Assembly: GCF_011320225.1 (NCBI RefSeq)
Contig: NZ_JAAOEN010000004.1
Location: 62,001 to 126,000 of the forward strand
Reading direction: 5' to 3'
Length of the DNA stretch: 64,000 bases
Source of the DNA: Phytoactinopolyspora limicola
GTDB lineage: Bacteria; Actinomycetota; Actinomycetes; Jiangellales; Jiangellaceae
Both the position numbers and the translations under genes were made by a program. Each line of letters opens with the position of its first letter. Within the stretch, counting starts at the first letter, position 1. The notes under the pieces are model-generated. The model had not been told where the DNA came from, did no database searches, and saw nothing but the letters and a program-made list of their open reading frames with translations. Below, piece after piece: positions 337-61,437 of this stretch.

Positions 337-428
337 GCCCGCCGGTTGACGCCCCGCCCTCTACTCCCGGCAACGATCACCGGGAGTAGAGGAGACGAGC
401 TCCTGGCCCCTTGGCCCGTCCTCAATGT

Positions 429-11295: not shown

Positions 11296-11349
11296 CATGA
11301 TCATGAACACTTTGCCGTGCGATAGCACGGCAAAGTGTTCATGATCATG
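11296..11349. terminator. Perfect 25-bp hairpin over the stop codon of the MBL gene
   Basis: CATGATCATGAACACTTTGC and five further bases form a perfect 25-bp stem with a GATA loop. The distal arm contains the stop codon of the MBL gene (11345-11347). It sits between two same-strand genes, so it probably ends or attenuates the upstream transcript. Its tips carry TGATCATG, as do several other hairpins in the window. Confidence 0.75.
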
Positions 11350-12307
11350 AGTGGAGTTGGTTCCAGACGTCGCGATCACGCTCGGCGGTCCAGATCTCCG
11401 GCCGCTCGATGCCGGCCAGTTCGTCCCACACCCGCGACACGTCGAACGGCAAACAATGCTCGAAGATCGGCCATCCGCCATAACGGTCCACCAGGGCCGC
11501 ATGACACGCCACGAACGCCTCCCGCAACGTCCCGCCACGGGCCTGCACGGCACCAACCTCGGCCAGCAACACCTGCAGGAAATGCCGCGTCTGCCCCACC
11601 GCGGCCGCCACCGCGTCCCGACCCCGCACCACGGCTCCACGTCCACCCACCAGGGTCTCGGCGTCCAGCGCAGCCACCCGATCCAGGGTCGACGACGACC
11701 AGTCACGGTGAAATGCGTCACCGGTGTACAGCGCAGCCTGCGCCTCCACCAGGTCACCGGCGAAGAGAATCCGCTGGTGCGGCAGCCACGCCACGATGTC
11801 ACCCTCCGTATGCCCACGGCCCAGATGTCGCAGCTCGACGACGCCGCGATCGCCACCCAGGTGAATCGTCGCCGTGTCATCGAAGGTCAGCGTCGGCCAG
11901 GTGAGGCCCGGAATCGACGCCGGCTCTTTGAACAACCGGGGCATCCGCCCATACTCGGAGGCCCAGTCCTGCTCCCCTCGCTCGGCGATCAACACCCGGG
12001 TGTTGTCGTGCGCCACGATCACCTCGGCGTCGAACGCACTGGCCCCCAGCACCCGCACCGCGTGGTAGTGCGACAGGACCAGGTACCGGATCGGCTTGTC
12101 CGTGTATTCGCGCAGCTTGGCCAGCCATTCACCGGCCGCGACCGGCGTCGCCAACGCCTCGAAGCACACCAGGAAATCCTCGCCCTCGACGGCGCCGACG
12201 TTGGGGTCGCCCTCGGCGGTCAGCGCGTAGACCCCGTCGGCGAGCACCTCCAGCGTCTGTTCCTTCTCTTCTACATCCGCCGACGACGCGAACGGCCTCG
12301 CACCCAC
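11345..12307 (-). CDS. Metallo-beta-lactamase-fold hydrolase, HYHAVRVLG subfamily
   Basis: 320 residues. MBL fold with SHYHAVRVLG (~103-112) in place of canonical HxHxDH, then GRGHTEGDIVAWLP, FAGDLVEAQ (metal-bridging Asp) and a C-terminal helical tail. The His pair is kept but the second-metal Asp-His is replaced, as in a recognised subgroup of quinoprotein-relay-like MBL proteins. The GTG at 12307 is chosen because GAGGTGG lies 5 nt upstream; a GTG at 12316 has no such site. It is divergent from a MarR regulator, which probably controls it, and upstream of the monooxygenase. Likely hydrolysis of a ring-derived ester or thioester (inference). Confidence 0.85.
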   Translation of the reverse strand: MGARPFASSADVEEKEQTLEVLADGVYALTAEGDPNVGAVEGEDFLVCFEALATPVAAGEWLAKLREYTDKPIRYLVLSHYHAVRVLGASAFDAEVIVAHDNTRVLIAERGEQDWASEYGRMPRLFKEPASIPGLTWPTLTFDDTATIHLGGDRGVVELRHLGRGHTEGDIVAWLPHQRILFAGDLVEAQAALYTGDAFHRDWSSSTLDRVAALDAETLVGGRGAVVRGRDAVAAAVGQTRHFLQVLLAEVGAVQARGGTLREAFVACHAALVDRYGGWPIFEHCLPFDVSRVWDELAGIERPEIWTAERDRDVWNQLHS

Positions 12308-12322
12308 AACAACCACCTCAGG

Positions 12323-17297: not shown

Positions 17298-17365
17298 ACT
17301 TCGCTACCGCCAGATGGCGTTAAGCGCCGGAATCGGGCTTTAACGCCATCTGGCGGTAGCGAAGT
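17298..17365. terminator. 26-bp perfect hairpin after the IclR gene
   Basis: ACTTCGCTACCGCCAGATGG plus six more bases pair perfectly with 17340-17365 across a 16-nt loop. It lies 85 bases after the IclR stop and before the convergent pyk gene. Either a terminator or a REP-like element. Confidence 0.6.
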
Positions 17366-17610: not shown

Positions 17611-17793
17611 GACGATCAGATGCACGCCGCGCGACCGCACACGTTTGCCGTGCACCTGATCGTTCCGCGTCCACCTCGTGAGATCCGACCGGACGACACT
17701 ACAGCGCGTTGACCAGCAGCGTCACCGACACATGTGCACCTGATCGTCGCCATAGAAAAGATCAGGTGCACAAACGACGATCAGGTGCACAAC
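17611..17793. repeat. Short interspersed repeat B: GTGCAYCTGATCGT, five copies with hairpin pairs
   Basis: Copies at 17611 (GACGATCAGATGCAC), 17650 (GTGCACCTGATCGTT), 17734 (GTGCACCTGATCGTCG), 17760 (GATCAGGTGCAC) and 17776 (CGACGATCAGGTGCAC). The first two and the third with the fifth face each other and can fold into hairpins. The array ends right before the pyk stop codon. The same repeat makes up the large inverted repeat at 41662-42177. Confidence 0.8.
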
Positions 17794-31649: not shown

Positions 31650-32852
31650 CTAGTGTGCGGCGCCGGAGCCGCCCGCCGGACGTCGCCCAGCGCCCGGTGA
31701 TCGTTGCCGGTTTCGCGTCGCTATAGCGACCGGATCTTGACTTTGATCACCGGATTGGTGGAGGACCGACGCGAGGGTTTCGAGATCGGCTAGGTTGTGC
31801 CCGCTGGAGAACACGTCGACGTGCGGCAGGGCGGCCCGCATCCCGCGGGCCAACGGCTCGTAGCCATCCGCGGCGCTCAACGGATTCAGCCACACCACCT
31901 GATACGCCAGCCGCGACAGCCGGGCCATCTGCCGGCCCAGCACGTCCGGGTCCCCCGTCTCCAAGCCGTCCGAACACATCACGACGACGGCGCCGCGGGC
32001 CATCCCGGCCTGCCCATATCGGTCGAGAAACTGACCCACCGATTCTCCGATCCGGGTGCCGCCGTCCCAGTCGAGGACAACATCGGCGGCACGACGCAGC
32101 ACGAAATCCGGGGTGGAATGGGAGAGCGCGACGGTCAGGCGGGTCAGCCGGGTGCCGAAGCAGAACACCTCGACCGGGCCGGCGCTGCGAAGTCCGGCAT
32201 GGGCGAACATCAGCAACGCGCGCGCGTACCCGGCCATCGAATGCGACACATCCAGGAGAAACACCAGTCTCCGCGGCCGGATCCGGCGGGTACGGGTACA
32301 CAACACCACCGGCTCACCGGCGTGGCGCAACGCCAACCGGGTGGTGCGACGCAGGTCGGGCCGGCCGCGGATGGCGGGTTTCCAGCGCCGGGTGCGCCGC
32401 CTCGGAACGGTGATCTCCAGCCTGGCCAGCACGGCGGCTAGACGCGCCAGCTCGTCGCTGGTGAGAGCGGCGAAGTCCTTCCGCCGTAGCACCTCCACCG
32501 AACTGGCCACGCTGTCGGGTTCTCCCCCACCACCGGAGGAATCGCGGTCGAGATCGGCCAACCGGTTGGACTCCGCGGGCCGGGCCAGCAGGTCACGCGA
32601 CACCGCCCGGCTGCCACCGAAGTATTCGGCGAAGACGCGGTCGTACACCGGCAGGTCGGCCGGGCGGGACACCAGGGTGACCCGCCCGGCCCAGAACAAC
32701 TCGTCCGGACCGGCGAGCACCGCGGCTCGGCAGAACTCGACCATCCGCGCCGGGTCGGCGGGTACACCGGCCCGCCGCAGGGCGGTACCGAACCCGGTGA
32801 GCTCGCGGTGCCCGTCCACGCCGTGCCGGCCTTGATCCGGCTGACGGGTCAC
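31650..32852 (-). CDS. CoxE-like VWA-domain protein
   Basis: 400 residues. Helical N-terminal part (FGTALRRAGVPADPARMVEFCRA, LFWAGRVTLV), basic linker (RRRTRRWKPA), then a von Willebrand A domain with the MIDAS motif LDVSHSM (Asp201, Ser203, Ser205), GGTRIGES and CSDGLETGDP. Partner of the MoxR-type ATPase encoded just upstream (GTGA overlap); CoxD/CoxE pairs mature the Mo active site in CO dehydrogenase systems. The last ~33 residues (from SGDQSQDPVAIAT) read through a repeat element at 31694-31753 and look like a non-conserved extension. Confidence 0.9.
   Translation of the reverse strand: MTRQPDQGRHGVDGHRELTGFGTALRRAGVPADPARMVEFCRAAVLAGPDELFWAGRVTLVSRPADLPVYDRVFAEYFGGSRAVSRDLLARPAESNRLADLDRDSSGGGGEPDSVASSVEVLRRKDFAALTSDELARLAAVLARLEITVPRRRTRRWKPAIRGRPDLRRTTRLALRHAGEPVVLCTRTRRIRPRRLVFLLDVSHSMAGYARALLMFAHAGLRSAGPVEVFCFGTRLTRLTVALSHSTPDFVLRRAADVVLDWDGGTRIGESVGQFLDRYGQAGMARGAVVVMCSDGLETGDPDVLGRQMARLSRLAYQVVWLNPLSAADGYEPLARGMRAALPHVDVFSSGHNLADLETLASVLHQSGDQSQDPVAIATRNRQRSPGAGRRPAGGSGAAH
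31694..31753. repeat. TGATC-tipped repeat inside the coxE-like 3' end
   Basis: Tips CCGGTGATC / GATCACCGG flank a 14-bp palindrome GTCGCTATAGCGAC. Bases 31717-31750 match 53486-53519 on the other strand at 31 of 34 positions. The element lies within the coding sequence and supplies residues ~367-386 of the CoxE-like protein. Confidence 0.7.
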
Positions 32853-41661: not shown

Positions 41662-42177
41662 CGTTGTGCACCTGATCTCCGTTTTGGCGCCTGATCGTTT
41701 TCACCGGGGTGATCAGATGTGGATGACGACGTGTTGTGGCATGTGGCGGCACGGAGGTGAGCATCTGATCGCGTCTTAGAATGTGAACGCGAAACGATCA
41801 GATGCACAAGCTCGACGTACCGGTAGGTTGATGCATCTGATCGTTAAGAGTCGGCGCCGATCCACATTGATCCTCACCGACCTAGGTTGATCTACGCTGT
41901 CCCACGTTGATCTGCGTCGTGCAGCCAAGCCCGTGGCACGAGCGCGCGCAGCCGCGTTTCCGGACCGCTAGGTGGCCGGGTGGTGGCCCGTTAGACGATC
42001 AGATGCACAACCCGCTCTGAAGCGGCCGCTCGTGCATCTGATCGTTTCGCGTTCACATTCTAAGACGCGATCCGATGCATCAACCTCGCCATCAACCACC
42101 GTCAACACGTCGTCATCCACATCTGATCACCCCGGTGAAAACGATCAGGCGCCAAAACGGAGATCAGGTGCACAACG
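41662..42177. repeat. 516-bp inverted-repeat element built from repeat B
   Basis: Outer arms 41662-41736 and 42103-42177 are perfectly complementary over 75 bp (CGTTGTGCACCTGATCTCCG and onward). Inner arms 41761-41807 and 42032-42078 match at 46 of 47 positions, and the two arm blocks are separated by 24 unmatched bases on both sides. A 224-bp centre (41808-42031) holds further copies of GTGCATCTGATCGT and a 20-bp tandem repeat. It fills the gap between convergent moaA and gltD, and no gene is visible. No clear target-site duplication flanks it. Confidence 0.9.
41861..41920. repeat. Three 20-bp units around a TTGATC core
   Basis: TCCACATTGATCCTCACCGA, CCTAGGTTGATCTACGCTGT and CCCACGTTGATCTGCGTCGT follow each other without gaps, sharing C-A/G-TTGATC. 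They form the centre of the inverted-repeat element. Confidence 0.55.
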
Positions 42178-53338: not shown

Positions 53339-53450
53339 CCCACACCCCCACACCCCCACACCCCCCACACCCCCACACCCCCCACACCCCCACACCCCCC
53401 ACACCCCCACACCCCCCACACCCCCACACCCCCCACACCCCCCACACCCC
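53339..53450. repeat. CCCCCACAC minisatellite (17-bp period), G-quadruplex candidate
   Basis: About 112 bases of C5-6 runs separated by ACA, with a unit close to ACACCCCCACACCCCCC repeated about six times. On the minus strand (sense strand of trpBA) this gives G5-6 runs with TGT loops, an ideal G-quadruplex pattern. No coding sequence is credible here. Confidence 0.95.
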
Positions 53451-53452
53451 GG

Positions 53453-53573
53453 GTGATCGTCAGCTGATTTCTGCCCTCACCCCCAGTGATCGAAGTCAGG
53501 ATCCGGTCGCTATGGCGACACCAAACTGCTGACGATCACTGGGGGTGAGGGGCAGAAATCAGCTGACGATCAC
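53453..53573. repeat. 40-bp inverted repeat, TGATCGT-tipped, before the Tat/GMC cassette
   Basis: Arm 53453-53492 (GTGATCGTCAGCTGATTTCT and onward) pairs with 53533-53573 with one bulged G. The 40-base centre contains the element copy 53486-53519 that matches 31717-31750. Could act as a terminator/insulator at the cassette border. Confidence 0.85.
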
Positions 53574-54500: not shown

Positions 54501-56278
54501 TGCGCGACGTCATCATCATCGGCGCGGGCGGCGGCGGTCCCGTCGTCGCCAAGGAACTGGCCGCTCGCGGCTTGGACGTCCTGCTGTTGGAGGCCGGTCC
54601 GCGACACGCCGATCCGGAGTCCGAATGGACCCACTTGGAGAACGACGCCAACAACCCGCTCTCCGGCTTCCTACGGTTCGGCCCGGAGAACCGGGACGCA
54701 CCGGCCTGGTACCGCGAGACCCCGCAGAACTCGTTCATCTGGCAACTGTCCGGCGTCGGCGGCACCACCCAGCACTATTTCGGCAACTCGCCACGCGCCA
54801 TGCCCGGTGTCTTCACCGGGTACAACGGGCCGGACCGCGACGCCTACGACACCGCGCACCTGTTCCCGTTCACCTACGAGGAGCTGGTGCCGTACTTCGA
54901 GTGGGTCGAGGCCACCCTGCCCGTGCAAACAGCCGCCATGGGCACCAAGGAGTCGGTGTTCTTCCGCGGGTGCGAGGGTATCGGGCTGCCGGTGCAAACG
55001 TCGAAGACCACCACTGAAGACTCGTTCCGGCCTCAGGAGAACGCCATTTTGCAGCCGGGTGGGTGGGCCGGCAAGCTGACCGGGCGGGACGATCCCCGGC
55101 TGCGCTTTCCGGAGGCCACCGGCTGCACGTTCTGCGGGTATTGCATGCAGGGCTGCTCCAAGCCGCGCGGGGCGCCGCGCAACCTGGCCGCCAAACGGTC
55201 GACGGACAACAGCTACGTGCCGATGGCGCTGACCGCCGACGTGTGGGCCGACGGCGGCCGTCGCGCTGAATTGATCGCCGACGCCTACGTCACCAAGATC
55301 CACACAGAACAGCGCGGCGGTGAAACCACGGCTACCGGGGTGACCTGGCGGGTAGGTGCTACCGGTGACTATCACCGCGAGGACGCCACCGTGGTGGTCA
55401 TGGCGGGTGGCTGTACCGAAGACCCCCGACTGTGGCTGAACAGCGCACTGCCGAATCCCAACGGCTGGGTCGGGCGTGGATACACCGATCACTTCTTCGA
55501 CTGGGTGATCGGCCTGTTCGACGACGACACCGGATCCACCAGGGGAGCCGCGTCGGCGGCCCGCGCCGACTTCCCGGGCCGCGGCGGCATGGAGAACGTC
55601 GGACTGACGCCGGGGTTGCAGCAGTTCGCCGCCACCTTCTCCGACAGTGGCATCCGCGGCCACTACACCAATGGGCGCGGCCCGGAGGGCCCCTGGGACG
55701 GCACGGCCGGCCGGATGATCGGCGACGAGCTCAAGGATGCCCTGACGAACGGGATCGACCGGCTGCTCAACGTGCTGGTGATTACCGACGACGACGTCGA
55801 AGCCCAGAATCGGGTGACGTTGTCGGCGCTACCGGCCGACGAGCACGGCCCCGTGCCTAAGGTCCGATTCCACCAGCGCGAGCGTTCCGCGCGCACGCGG
55901 GCGAACCGGGAGTTCGTGGCCCGCCGGGCGGCTGAGATGTTGCGGGCGGCCGGGGCGACGAAGGTGGTTCGGATCGACTGGCCGCCCCTGTTGCTCCACG
56001 TACAGTCGTCGATGCGGATGGGTCTGTCCGAGGACGACTCGGTGCTGGACGCCAACGCCGAGGCGCGGTGGGTCAAGCGGCTGTTCATCGCCGACAATGC
56101 CGCCTTGGCGAACAGCCTCGGCGGGCCGAATCCGACGTTAACGGCGCAGGCGCTGGCCACCCGCACCGCGGAGAAGATCTTCAGCCGCTACTTCGGTGGC
56201 GATGCCTGGGTGGGTCGGGAATCTCCCGTCGTCTCCACCGACTCCCGGATCTCCGCGCAACTTACCCCCTCCCGGTGA
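54500..56278 (+). CDS. GMC-family FAD oxidoreductase
   Basis: 592 residues. FAD motif VIIIGAGGGGPVVAKELAAR (4-23), VLLLEAGPRH, SGVGGTTQHYFGNSPRAMP, and a Cys-rich CTFCGYCMQGC (~209) as found in gluconate/FAD-dehydrogenase-type GMC enzymes. The C-terminal domain has the active-site His (LLHVQSSMRMG, ~495) and FIADNAALANSLGGPNPTLTAQALATRTAE (its pieces). It oxidises an alcohol, sugar or sterol; the substrate is unknown. It has no signal of its own and may travel with the Tat partner. The stop codon lies inside a hairpin. Confidence 0.9.
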   Translation: MRDVIIIGAGGGGPVVAKELAARGLDVLLLEAGPRHADPESEWTHLENDANNPLSGFLRFGPENRDAPAWYRETPQNSFIWQLSGVGGTTQHYFGNSPRAMPGVFTGYNGPDRDAYDTAHLFPFTYEELVPYFEWVEATLPVQTAAMGTKESVFFRGCEGIGLPVQTSKTTTEDSFRPQENAILQPGGWAGKLTGRDDPRLRFPEATGCTFCGYCMQGCSKPRGAPRNLAAKRSTDNSYVPMALTADVWADGGRRAELIADAYVTKIHTEQRGGETTATGVTWRVGATGDYHREDATVVVMAGGCTEDPRLWLNSALPNPNGWVGRGYTDHFFDWVIGLFDDDTGSTRGAASAARADFPGRGGMENVGLTPGLQQFAATFSDSGIRGHYTNGRGPEGPWDGTAGRMIGDELKDALTNGIDRLLNVLVITDDDVEAQNRVTLSALPADEHGPVPKVRFHQRERSARTRANREFVARRAAEMLRAAGATKVVRIDWPPLLLHVQSSMRMGLSEDDSVLDANAEARWVKRLFIADNAALANSLGGPNPTLTAQALATRTAEKIFSRYFGGDAWVGRESPVVSTDSRISAQLTPSR

Positions 56279-56327
56279 TCATTGGCTTTTGTCTACCGAA
56301 TTCGGTAGTCAAAAGCCAATGATCACC
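56274..56327. terminator. Long hairpin over the GMC stop codon
   Basis: GGTGATCATTGGCTTTTG and its complement, separated by a T-T mismatch and the palindrome CTACCGAATTCGGTAG, form one near-continuous stem. The GMC stop TGA (56276-56278) is in the first arm. It probably terminates both the cassette and the convergent trpC transcript. Confidence 0.8.
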
Positions 56328-56343
56328 GGGGGGGGGGGGGGGG
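56328..56343. repeat. G16 homopolymer next to the trpC stop
   Basis: Sixteen consecutive G residues between the hairpin and the trpC stop codon (TTA, 56344-56346 on the plus strand). Such runs slip readily and are also prone to sequencing error. Confidence 0.9.
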
Positions 56344-60296: not shown

Positions 60297-60329
60297 GATC
60301 GTGGATGGGAGCACCAACTATCCACGATC
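60297..60329. terminator. Hairpin over the hisI stop codon
   Basis: GATCGTGGAT and ATCCACGATC pair perfectly across a 13-base loop; the second arm borders and partly contains the hisI stop (60328-60330). Separates hisI from trpE. Confidence 0.6.
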
Positions 60330-60678
60330 ATGGTGTGGTGACCTCGATCAGGCCGTCGTCGAAACACGTACGCGTCCCGGTGTGGCAGGCCGGGCCTTCC
60401 TGGTGGACTTTGACGAGCAGGGTGTCACCATCGCAGTCGAGACGCACCTCGCGCACCCACTGACGGTGCCCCGACGTCTCCCCCTTGACCCAATACTCCT
60501 GCCGGCTGCGGCTCCAGTAGGTGGCCCGGCCCGAGGTCAACGTCCGGTGCAGCGCCTCGTCGTCCATCCAGGCGAGCATGAGCACCTCACCGGTGTCATG
60601 CTGCTGGACCACCGCGGCGACCAAGCCGTCCGGGGTGCGTTTGAGCCGCTCGGTGAGAGCGGGTGCGAGACCGGGCAT
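60328..60678 (-). CDS. hisI: Phosphoribosyl-AMP cyclohydrolase
   Basis: 116 residues. Opens the adenine ring of PR-AMP in histidine synthesis. Zn/Mg ligands are all present: DCDGD (Asp81, Asp83, Asp85) with Cys82, and Cys98 and Cys105 in [12 protein letters not shown], at the spacing of the E. coli enzyme. Signature [20 protein letters not shown] is intact. GGAG lies very close to the ATG, and a GTG one codon earlier is possible. The usual actinobacterial neighbour of trpE. Confidence 0.96.
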
Positions 60679-60858
60679 CACTCCATTCTGCCGGACGGAG
60701 GTGCGATCGGCTCCCAGGACACCTACCCTAGGTGCGGCCCACCCGGTGCCATGCGGAGTGTGGTCCGTCCATACGCTGGACACCGCACCCGGCCGACCCG
60801 ATGAGTGGTTGGGTCCGTTCCGGGCCGAGATGAGCTGATTTCGACAAGGAGTATCTCT

Positions 60859-61380
60859 GTGACACGCACCACCCGCATCTCCGGCGCCATCCGCGTCGCC
60901 GCTATCGTCGGCGCCAGCGCGTTGGTCCTGACCGGATGCTCGGTGTTCGACGACCTCTTCGGTGGCGACGACGAGCCGGACCGAAACGACGACGGCCAGG
61001 TCAGCGACGTCGTCGAGAATGCCAGCATCTTCGATATCACCGAGGGCGACTGTCTGGGTGAATACGCCGACGACGGCGACGTGAAGGTCGTCGACATCAT
61101 CCCGTGCGACCAGGAGCACTTCCAGGAGGTGCTCCTCATCACCCAGATCGACGCCGAGGAGCTGCCCGACCAGGAAGAGGTCCGCGCTCAGGTGATCGAC
61201 GAGTGCCCGCCGGCCTTCGAGGAGTTCGTCGGGCTCGACTTCGACGAGTCCGAGCTCGACATCCACTACCTGTCGCCGTCCAGCGACTCCTGGGAGCAGC
61301 AGGACGACCGTGACATCGTCTGCACGGTCTACGACCCCAGCGGCATGGTGACGGGTAGCTTCCGGGGCGCCGAGCGCTGA
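60859..61380 (+). CDS. Lipoprotein of the septum-formation (Septum_form) family
   Basis: 173 residues, GTG start with AAGGAG 7 nt upstream. Signal peptide with lipobox LVLTGC (Cys27 would be lipidated by Lgt). A very acidic linker ([12 protein letters not shown]) leads to a domain with [30 protein letters not shown] (its pieces) and two further Cys (DECPPAF, VCTVYD), probably paired in disulfides. Related domains occur in proteins implicated in septum formation; function uncertain. Divergent from hisI. Confidence 0.85.
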
Positions 61381-61437
61381 CCCGCAGGACACCCCCGCCC
61401 AGCGCCACCTAACTGCCGTCGGCGTGCCTGATCGCTC

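Follow-up and report, generated by a model that had tools for sequence, protein, structure and literature searches.

TGATC-tipped hairpins of Phytoactinopolyspora limicola belong to dispersed repeat families, each paired with an AbiEi/DUF559-like gene that is their predicted mover

Introduction

Why do hairpins scattered along one actinobacterial contig carry the same TGATC tip over different inner stems, and why does the tip so often coincide with the stop codon of a neighboring gene? The window, by which we mean the whole 64,000-nucleotide stretch analysed (C34:62001-126000 in a 6.59-Mb genome of 40 contigs, with host relatives in Phytoactinopolyspora, Jiangellaceae), contains five such candidates. 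The original prediction took them for unrelated hairpins and suggested termination or insulation modules or an insertion mechanism targeting TGA-TC. We consider it probable that the hairpins are mobile, tiny dispersed elements, and that each family is paired with an AbiEi/DUF559-like protein that copies it.

Results

Anatomy of the elements in the window

Direct inspection of the sequence and an inverted-repeat scan of the window identified four of the five elements examined as genuine TGATC-tipped elements and the one at 60297 as a short, one-sided look-alike (Table 1). The shared tip thus holds at 11296, 31698, 53453, and 56271 and fails at 60297, where it is one-sided. Rather than being unrelated, the hairpins are copies of several dispersed families of tiny repeats with a shared anatomy: they measure about 50–54 bp, usually have AT at the center, and have inner stems that vary with family and species, which agrees with the predicted difference of inner stems under a common tip. 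Family A is represented by 31698 and 53454, family B by 11296, and family C by 56276; family D has sites elsewhere in the genome.

The family B hairpin (11296-11349) has perfect arms of 25 bp, a loop of 4 nt, and tips CATGATCATG, and the family C hairpin (56271-56330) has perfect arms of 21 bp and tips GGTGATCAT. The nested family A hairpin (53453-53573) has outer arms tipped by GTGATCGTCAGC. The single family A element, which lies within the 3' part of a CoxE-like ORF (31650-32852), has tips TGATCGTT and TTTGATCA and a perfect core, with arms that are unpaired between tip and core. A hairpin peculiar to its locus (358-392) contains, by our reading, the apparent family A remnant in its loop and base. 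Three ORFs, with ends at 11345 (minus strand), 56278 (plus), and 60328 (minus), each stop at the tip TGA, so the stop codons predicted in or at the stems at 11296, 56274, and 60297 are all there; the last belongs to an ORF (60328-61392, minus) with a phosphoribosyl-AMP cyclohydrolase domain. The length of the 60297 hairpin does not match the 50-nt class, and it probably falls outside it; we assign it to no family. Rfam, at gathering scores, has no match in the window.

Table 1. Hairpin elements, stop codons taken from hairpin tips, and cognate genes
Feature	Location	Strand	Description
Apparent family A remnant	367..383		CCGGCAACGATCACCGG, right half of A tip
Family B hairpin	11296..11349		54 bp, CATGATCATGAACACTTTGCCGTG-CGATAG-mirror
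Stop TGA of metallo-beta-lactamase-superfamily gene 11345-12316	11345..11347	-	From hairpin tip
Family A single element A1	31698..31749		Mosaic: two arm types meeting at core GTCGCTATAGCGAC
Family A nested element A2	53454..53572		Outer arms TGATCGTCAGCTGATTTCTGCCC(T)CACCCCC around inner 52-nt element
Inner element of nested A2, 52 nt	53487..53538		Tips TGATCG/CGATCA; core GTCGCTATGGCGAC at 53506-53519
Family C hairpin	56276..56325		TGATCATTGGCTTTTGTCTACCGAATTCGG...; perfect arms 56271-56291 / 56310-56330
Stop TGA of GMC oxidoreductase-like gene	56276..56278	+	From hairpin tip
Short hairpin, TGATC on one side only	60297..60329		10-bp arms, 33 nt overall; left side TTCGATCG
Family A cognate gene, outside the window	C12:364124, 364.1-365.1 kb		Flanked by two A elements
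Family B cognate gene (L291), outside the window	C10:92941, ~92.3-93.4 kb		Flanked by two B
Family C cognate gene, outside the window	C12:13212, ~12.6-13.7 kb		Flanked by two C
Family D cognate gene	C3:56618		Flanked by two D

Other repeats were seen in the same sequence. A G run of about 16 (56327-56343) adjoins the family C hairpin, and a tandem CCCCCACAC-type repeat (53350-53450) immediately precedes the nested family A element; this repeat is missing in the relative G001, where the intergenic region is far shorter. Palindromic repeats with inner CTGATCG / CGATCAG (GTGCATCTGATCG, TGTGCACCTGATCG) form short arrays at 41761-42045 and 17650-17791, with counterparts in L031, L032, L043, and L050 of the sample (in L050:3905-4591 as repeated inverted repeats of the CTGATCG family). 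An inverted repeat with 58-bp arms at L034:7099-7264 mixes the CTGATCG family with a TGATC end, and a hairpin with 26-bp arms, ACTTCGCTACCGCCAGATGGCGTTAA (17298-17365), recurs in L035 and L046 near CTGATCG-type repeats.

Dispersed families and their copy number

We sampled 464 kb of this genome (the window plus 20 stretches of 20 kb). Perfect arm pairs of 12 or more numbered 101, nested pairs being counted repeatedly, versus 12 in one third-order Markov simulation, and TGATC headed the 5-mers on their left side (49 of 101; background 1.9 per 1000). The pattern TGATCRT-N30-44-AYGATCA, which does not require internal pairing, occurs at 280 places in the genome and its reversed counterpart at none, so the genome-wide search suggested along with the original prediction bore out the abundance of the tips. 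The five nearest relatives have 69–249 places each (reversed: 1 in G003, 0 elsewhere) and 16 further Jiangellaceae genomes have 0–144, which gives a range of 0–280 across 22 Jiangellaceae genomes, the present one counted. The 38 other genomes of the class have 0–14 (reversed: 1 each in G039 and G058), and several of the matches listed there look like coding sequence.

Spacing from TGATC to GATCA is 50–52 nt in families A, B, and C. Family A elements are mosaics in which two arm types meet at the core. Many of them sit within another hairpin whose tip is identical, and such nested elements measure about 118–124 bp. Their core, GTCGCNATNGCGAC, has 84 matches in this genome with 3 mismatches allowed (some palindromic places count once per strand), versus 2 for the reversed core. 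Family A cores also lie within about 140 bases of the ends of contigs C7, C15, C20, and C39, and the elements may have caused these assembly breaks. Families C and D have 11 and 2 occurrences, respectively, in the sequence of this genome that was examined.

Family B has 51 copies with exact 22-nt arms, and 80 by tip and length pattern. Among 50 listed copies the center is always 6 nt, NNATNN in 49 and CCGTGG in 1, and in the copies read the flanks are unrelated to each other. Half-arm matches number 0–3 in four genomes of the same genus. The pattern CATGATCATGAAC-N14-44-GTTCATGATCATG has 80 matches in this genome, 13 in G001, 73 in G002, 26 in G003, 17 in G005, and 0 in G004, and has none in the other 290 of the 296 genomes searched. 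Searched for in named genomes, a hairpin pattern gave at least 79 loci, and those listed all come from P. halotolerans, P. endophytica, and P. halophila. Across these three named species the B-type length is 53 (73 copies) or 54 (8 copies) in 81 of 81, and the inner stem is species-specific, with pairing often preserved via changes on both sides.

Each of families A to D brackets its own gene

In this genome, each of families A to D has one gene with copies of that family on both sides. The first cognate was a gene enclosed by a family A pair; its product begins like AbiEi and matches DUF559 weakly. Further members were collected by homology alone, through a DUF559 search and then a profile of such proteins. 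We called an ORF bracketed if a stretch of at least 13, in palindromic context, was shared between the two flanks, within 450 bp on both sides. By this rule 38 of 67 family ORFs are bracketed, versus 9 of 655 other genes (Fisher p ~2e-36), where the 67 rows count L263 (bracketed) and L323 (not) twice and omit one family ORF near a stretch end, and the controls are 12 of 658 minus the family genes L043:14124, L283:4639, and L285:12570. Counted per locus, the result is 37 of 65 versus 10 of 656 (p ~4e-35), the latter including one family gene that the HMMs missed (L283:4639, that of L227). In both comparisons the controls come from G000–G005 only and the family ORFs from 16 genomes, and orthologue pairs (e.g., L300/L304 and L297/L303) are not independent. 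Without L043, the sole member noticed through its hairpins, 37 of 66 are bracketed, and the B/C protein type alone gives 15 of 19. The pairing of hairpin family and gene is well supported. The same rule leaves 29 of 67 family ORFs unbracketed, and the conserved orthologue group L222–L224 has no shared flank repeat.

The pairing recurs in other genomes. In G000, G001, and G002, the B hairpins that bracket a gene have the inner stem of their own species. In G001, separate genes lie between hairpins of the B-like, C-like, D-like, and A-like kinds and of two more families; 540 kb of this genome contain more copies of the B-, C-, D-, and A-like families and of that of L227, and one weak match elsewhere to that of L234. 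G002 and G003 have hairpin-enclosed genes of the same kind, and other Jiangellaceae genomes carry hairpin families that lack TGATC, of which several have a tip TGA. Family matches, fragments counted, number 7–23 in each of 15 Jiangellaceae genomes and 8 in G026, from another family of the class, where a 59% identical homologue lies between two TGATC hairpins and has the tip TGA as its stop. Outside Jiangellaceae, a shared flank repeat of at least 15 occurs in only three of 12 judgeable loci (L333, L340, and L343), 17 loci having been read and L327, L335, L336, L339, and L341 excluded for overlapping flank windows that give false matches.

Of seven other, unpaired genes or fragments of the wider family in G000 (one on C7 and two on C1 among them), the four checked, L287, L288, L289, and L292, fail pairing. 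Each of the four cognate genes is single-copy in the present genome, a point against the mobile reading, and the genes themselves are at most candidates for movement. We also considered and dropped a composite element with other cargo, since genes between neighboring hairpins (L044, L181, L182, and L043) are mostly ordinary metabolic ones by reading, one of them confirmed by Pfam; reading these loci yielded the one AbiEi/DUF559-like gene.

Tips, stop codons, and gene ends

We called genes by codon score, with a caller trained on the sample; it miscalled the hisI region of the window. Gene context was assessed for 52 B sites, some two thirds of all 80 found genome-wide and mostly from the exact-arm list: 30 lie between tandem genes, 13 between convergent genes, seven between divergent genes, and two within an ORF. 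Divergent regions are under-used relative to their share of intergenic length (p 0.001), and the deficit relative to their share by count is not significant (p 0.11). There are 56 gene 3' ends that face a B copy, and 23 of these end exactly at the TGA of the first tip; the other 33 have their stop outside the hairpin (28 of them 5–53 nt off). None of the 56 stops at the far tip, and two "inside" ORFs stop at the center. The in-hairpin stops share one frame in 23 of 25 cases, versus one third expected (p 1.5e-9). Stops at the tip TGA were also found for family C (6 of 13), nested A (4 of 42, with two more inside elsewhere), and single A (1 of 10), and nested A has convergent context in 15 of 31 (p 0.001).

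The cognate genes themselves often end in this way. The gene's own stop lies within 10 nt of a hairpin edge in 24 of 68 family ORFs, the stop TGA being within the stem in 20 of these 24, and 26 of 68 have no hairpin near the stop; the ORF of the B cognate, L291, runs through its own hairpin as far as the far tip. Because a hairpin edge so often meets the stop of its cognate gene, the TGA looks like part of the element rather than of the target. Insertion, the second suggestion of the original prediction, was rightly suspected, and TGA-TC as its target fits less well, with a TGA that looks element-borne in 20 of 24 near-stop hairpins. A preference for insertion at a pre-existing TGA may nonetheless exist. 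Insertion into existing terminator hairpins seems unlikely, because in the copies read the outer palindrome meets the tip without a leftover loop.

Alternatively, selection at gene ends could have shaped the hairpins as bidirectional terminators or insulators that include the stop in their stem, the gene pairing being a by-product. Their position at gene 3' ends, the 30 tandem and 13 convergent B contexts, the convergent contexts of nested A, and the compensated stem changes would all suit this explanation, which we nevertheless regard as improbable. A T-tract (at least 6 T in the 12 nt beyond either end) accompanies 0 of 52 B copies, for which reason we dropped a pure terminator reading, and transcription termination alone is a weak one. 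Arms of 22 nt that are identical at 51 places require copying rather than selection; total length is constant across species, seven of 52 B copies are divergent, and each family has its own gene. The absent T-tracts, the constant length, and the gene per family also speak against termination modules in the primary sense of the original prediction.

The partner proteins

The cognate proteins combine an AbiEi-like N-terminal region with a conserved C-terminal region that resembles DUF559, mostly below the Pfam cut-off. Six of 10 proteins pass the AbiEi_4 cut-off (25 bits), including the B (36.1) and C (49.0) cognates of this genome; the A cognate scores 25.0 and the D cognate 18.1, L293 and L296 are below the cut-off, and L227 has no match. 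PADLOC AbiEi models match all five proteins tried (down to 7e-28), NCBIfam matches none of five, and a PDB sequence search gave two weak matches, both to abortive-infection proteins (E 0.16 and 0.17). For DUF559 (PF04480, cut-off 20.6 bits), L227 is above the cut-off (22.9), and L293 (18.7), L301 (17.5), L043 (16.0), and L290 (13.5) are below it. The B (L291) and C cognates of this genome have no DUF559 match reported at E 0.05. Scanned singly at a loose limit, seven of 11 B/C-type proteins have a weak DUF559 match (best E 0.0038), all those with a displayed score being under the cut-off.

Profiles of the A/D and B/C types can be aligned along 286 columns (99.6%), the C-terminal region among them, and E-L-D-G-R-x-G-H-x3-G-x-F-R-D-R-x-R-D-N does not vary in any of the 11 aligned proteins of the B/C type. 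DUF559 groups with the Vsr-like PD-(D/E)XK nucleases. From motif and profile similarity we infer that the C-terminal region may be a Vsr-like nuclease, an identity that is weak; Vsr is described as a PD-(D/E)XK superfamily member (PMC1189080). Genes of this family are, we presume, usually annotated as antitoxin-like or as DUF559. L291 is 70–74% identical to C-type proteins versus 58–59% to the B cognates of G001 and G002, so hairpin family and protein clade agree imperfectly.

With such an N-terminal region, the paired repeats might be operators for AbiEi-like autoregulation and the dispersed copies regulon targets, not mobile DNA. AbiEi does autoregulate by binding inverted repeats (PMC7319586). 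We nonetheless hold this to be quite improbable: one bracketing copy often sits at the stop codon, gene 3' ends hold most of the dispersed copies, and a regulator leaves unexplained 51 copies with identical arms that are nearly missing from relatives.

Gain and loss between relatives

The hairpins differ between relatives, as the comparison suggested in the original prediction would have it: those at 56276 and 53454 are missing in both G001 and G002. At 56276 both neighbor genes are present in these two genomes, with another hairpin-like sequence there by reading, and the GMC oxidoreductase-like orthologue in G001 ends in TAG without the hairpin; in G003, G004, and G005 the trpC side alone aligns and no TGATC hairpin was seen. 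Near the 60297 site, G005 carries a 57-bp hairpin of its own with a B-like tip, and G001 and G004 have none. At four further sites of this genome the hairpin is missing in the relatives compared, and at one of them, an A site, G002 has a different, non-TGATC hairpin. G002 and G003 share one B-type hairpin at an orthologous site and have different hairpin families at another. In G002, a segment of about 0.9 kb (L078:16114-17104) lies between two B-type hairpins, and G003 has a single hairpin without the segment. Because relatives diverge in about 15–30% of aligned bases, neither a precise empty site nor a target duplication was recovered at the sites compared.

Two side observations concern larger segments. 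The L078:16114-17104 segment encodes a membrane protein, VIT/CCC1-like by reading. About 23 kb of the window (~19283-42209) are missing in G001, G002, G003, and G004, where the flanks abut; this is a lineage-specific insertion or a shared loss.

Palindromes private to one locus sometimes extend beyond the tips. We set aside copies whose flanks were short, repeated, or contained N, which left 21 B and 4 C, and compared these with 1000 permutations. Palindromes of at least 6 bp past the tip were centered on eight of the B copies (permuted mean 0.9, maximum 5) and on three of the C copies (permuted mean 1.7, maximum 3). The counts are 2 of 16 in P. endophytica and 3 of 11 in P. halophila, each equal to the permuted maximum, and 0 of 52 in P. 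halotolerans. We infer that these palindromes may be traces of fold-back copying upon insertion. The hairpins could also have grown and spread by replication template switching with no dedicated enzyme, for which the inverted flanks in this genome, P. halophila, and P. endophytica would be a sign; that is very improbable, given that such flanks are absent in P. halotolerans and that dispersal to unrelated sites and the gene pairing are left unexplained.

Discussion

The closest known arrangement is that of REP/REPIN sequences and RAYT (TnpA-REP) in "REPtrons", in which many short, mostly extragenic palindromes are dispersed and each repeat family lies beside its own single-copy gene, the palindromes bordering the coding sequence. 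Dispersed palindromes bordering the cognate gene, and co-evolution of repeat and protein, are described for these systems (PMC3116915 and PMC8266576). The high copy number of dispersed palindromes and a cognate gene bordered by them are likewise found here, but the protein is AbiEi-like with a DUF559-like region and not HUH/Y1, and the hairpins are long (50–54 bp) and near-perfect, with a TGA-bearing tip that serves as a stop codon. Classical REP/REPIN moved by a RAYT (Y1, HUH) transposase is the least credible explanation despite the equal layout and was ruled out for want of any Y1 transposase (PF01797) match in this genome (assembly 99.45% complete; the control is positive in five of 14 genomes), and no GTAG/CGTC tag was seen on reading the displayed A, B, and C copies, whose conserved tips are TGATC....

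By layout alone the pairs are of the REP kind; by enzyme they are a separate kind, which is the filing we prefer. They share the N-terminal region (Pfam AbiEi_4, PADLOC AbiEi) with the AbiEi antitoxins of AbiE type IV toxin-antitoxin systems, but have an extra conserved C-terminal region and bracketing dispersed hairpins. That region resembles Vsr, DUF559, and MTES_1575 nuclease-like families in motif and Pfam matches, but these have no link to dispersed hairpins in the literature searched. Within the open PMC literature, a scope largely exclusive of subscription papers and preprints, no listed match connects dispersed hairpins with AbiEi/DUF559 proteins. Organelles also have small mobile or dispersed hairpins, the double-hairpin elements and GC clusters of mitochondria, and we know of no cognate nuclease gene for them.

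We therefore return to hairpins copied by their partner protein, the predicted mover. Its AbiEi-like part would bind the inverted-repeat hairpin, and its nuclease part would nick or cut the hairpin, or a cruciform or single-stranded form of it, with the AT center as a candidate cut site. Repair or replication would then copy the hairpin to new places, mostly close to gene 3' ends. Carrying a TGA, the tip would make the final codons of a host gene a nearly harmless landing site, as gene ends would tolerate an insertion whose tip supplies the stop. As a secondary effect, the copies may affect the 3' ends of messages.

On balance, we lean toward an unrecognised minimal mobile system of actinobacteria, in which gene-less 50-bp hairpins are amplified by cognate AbiEi-DUF559-like nucleases. 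Such a system would be convergent on REPIN/RAYT but have a PD-(D/E)XK/Vsr-like enzyme, and its hairpin tip would form the stop of both nuclease and host genes. If true, a large and poorly studied gene family of actinobacteria would gain a function, and pairs of REP-like repeat and enzyme would have arisen repeatedly, with unrelated enzymes. Such small, defined pairs make the spread of gene-less hairpins in bacterial genomes testable.
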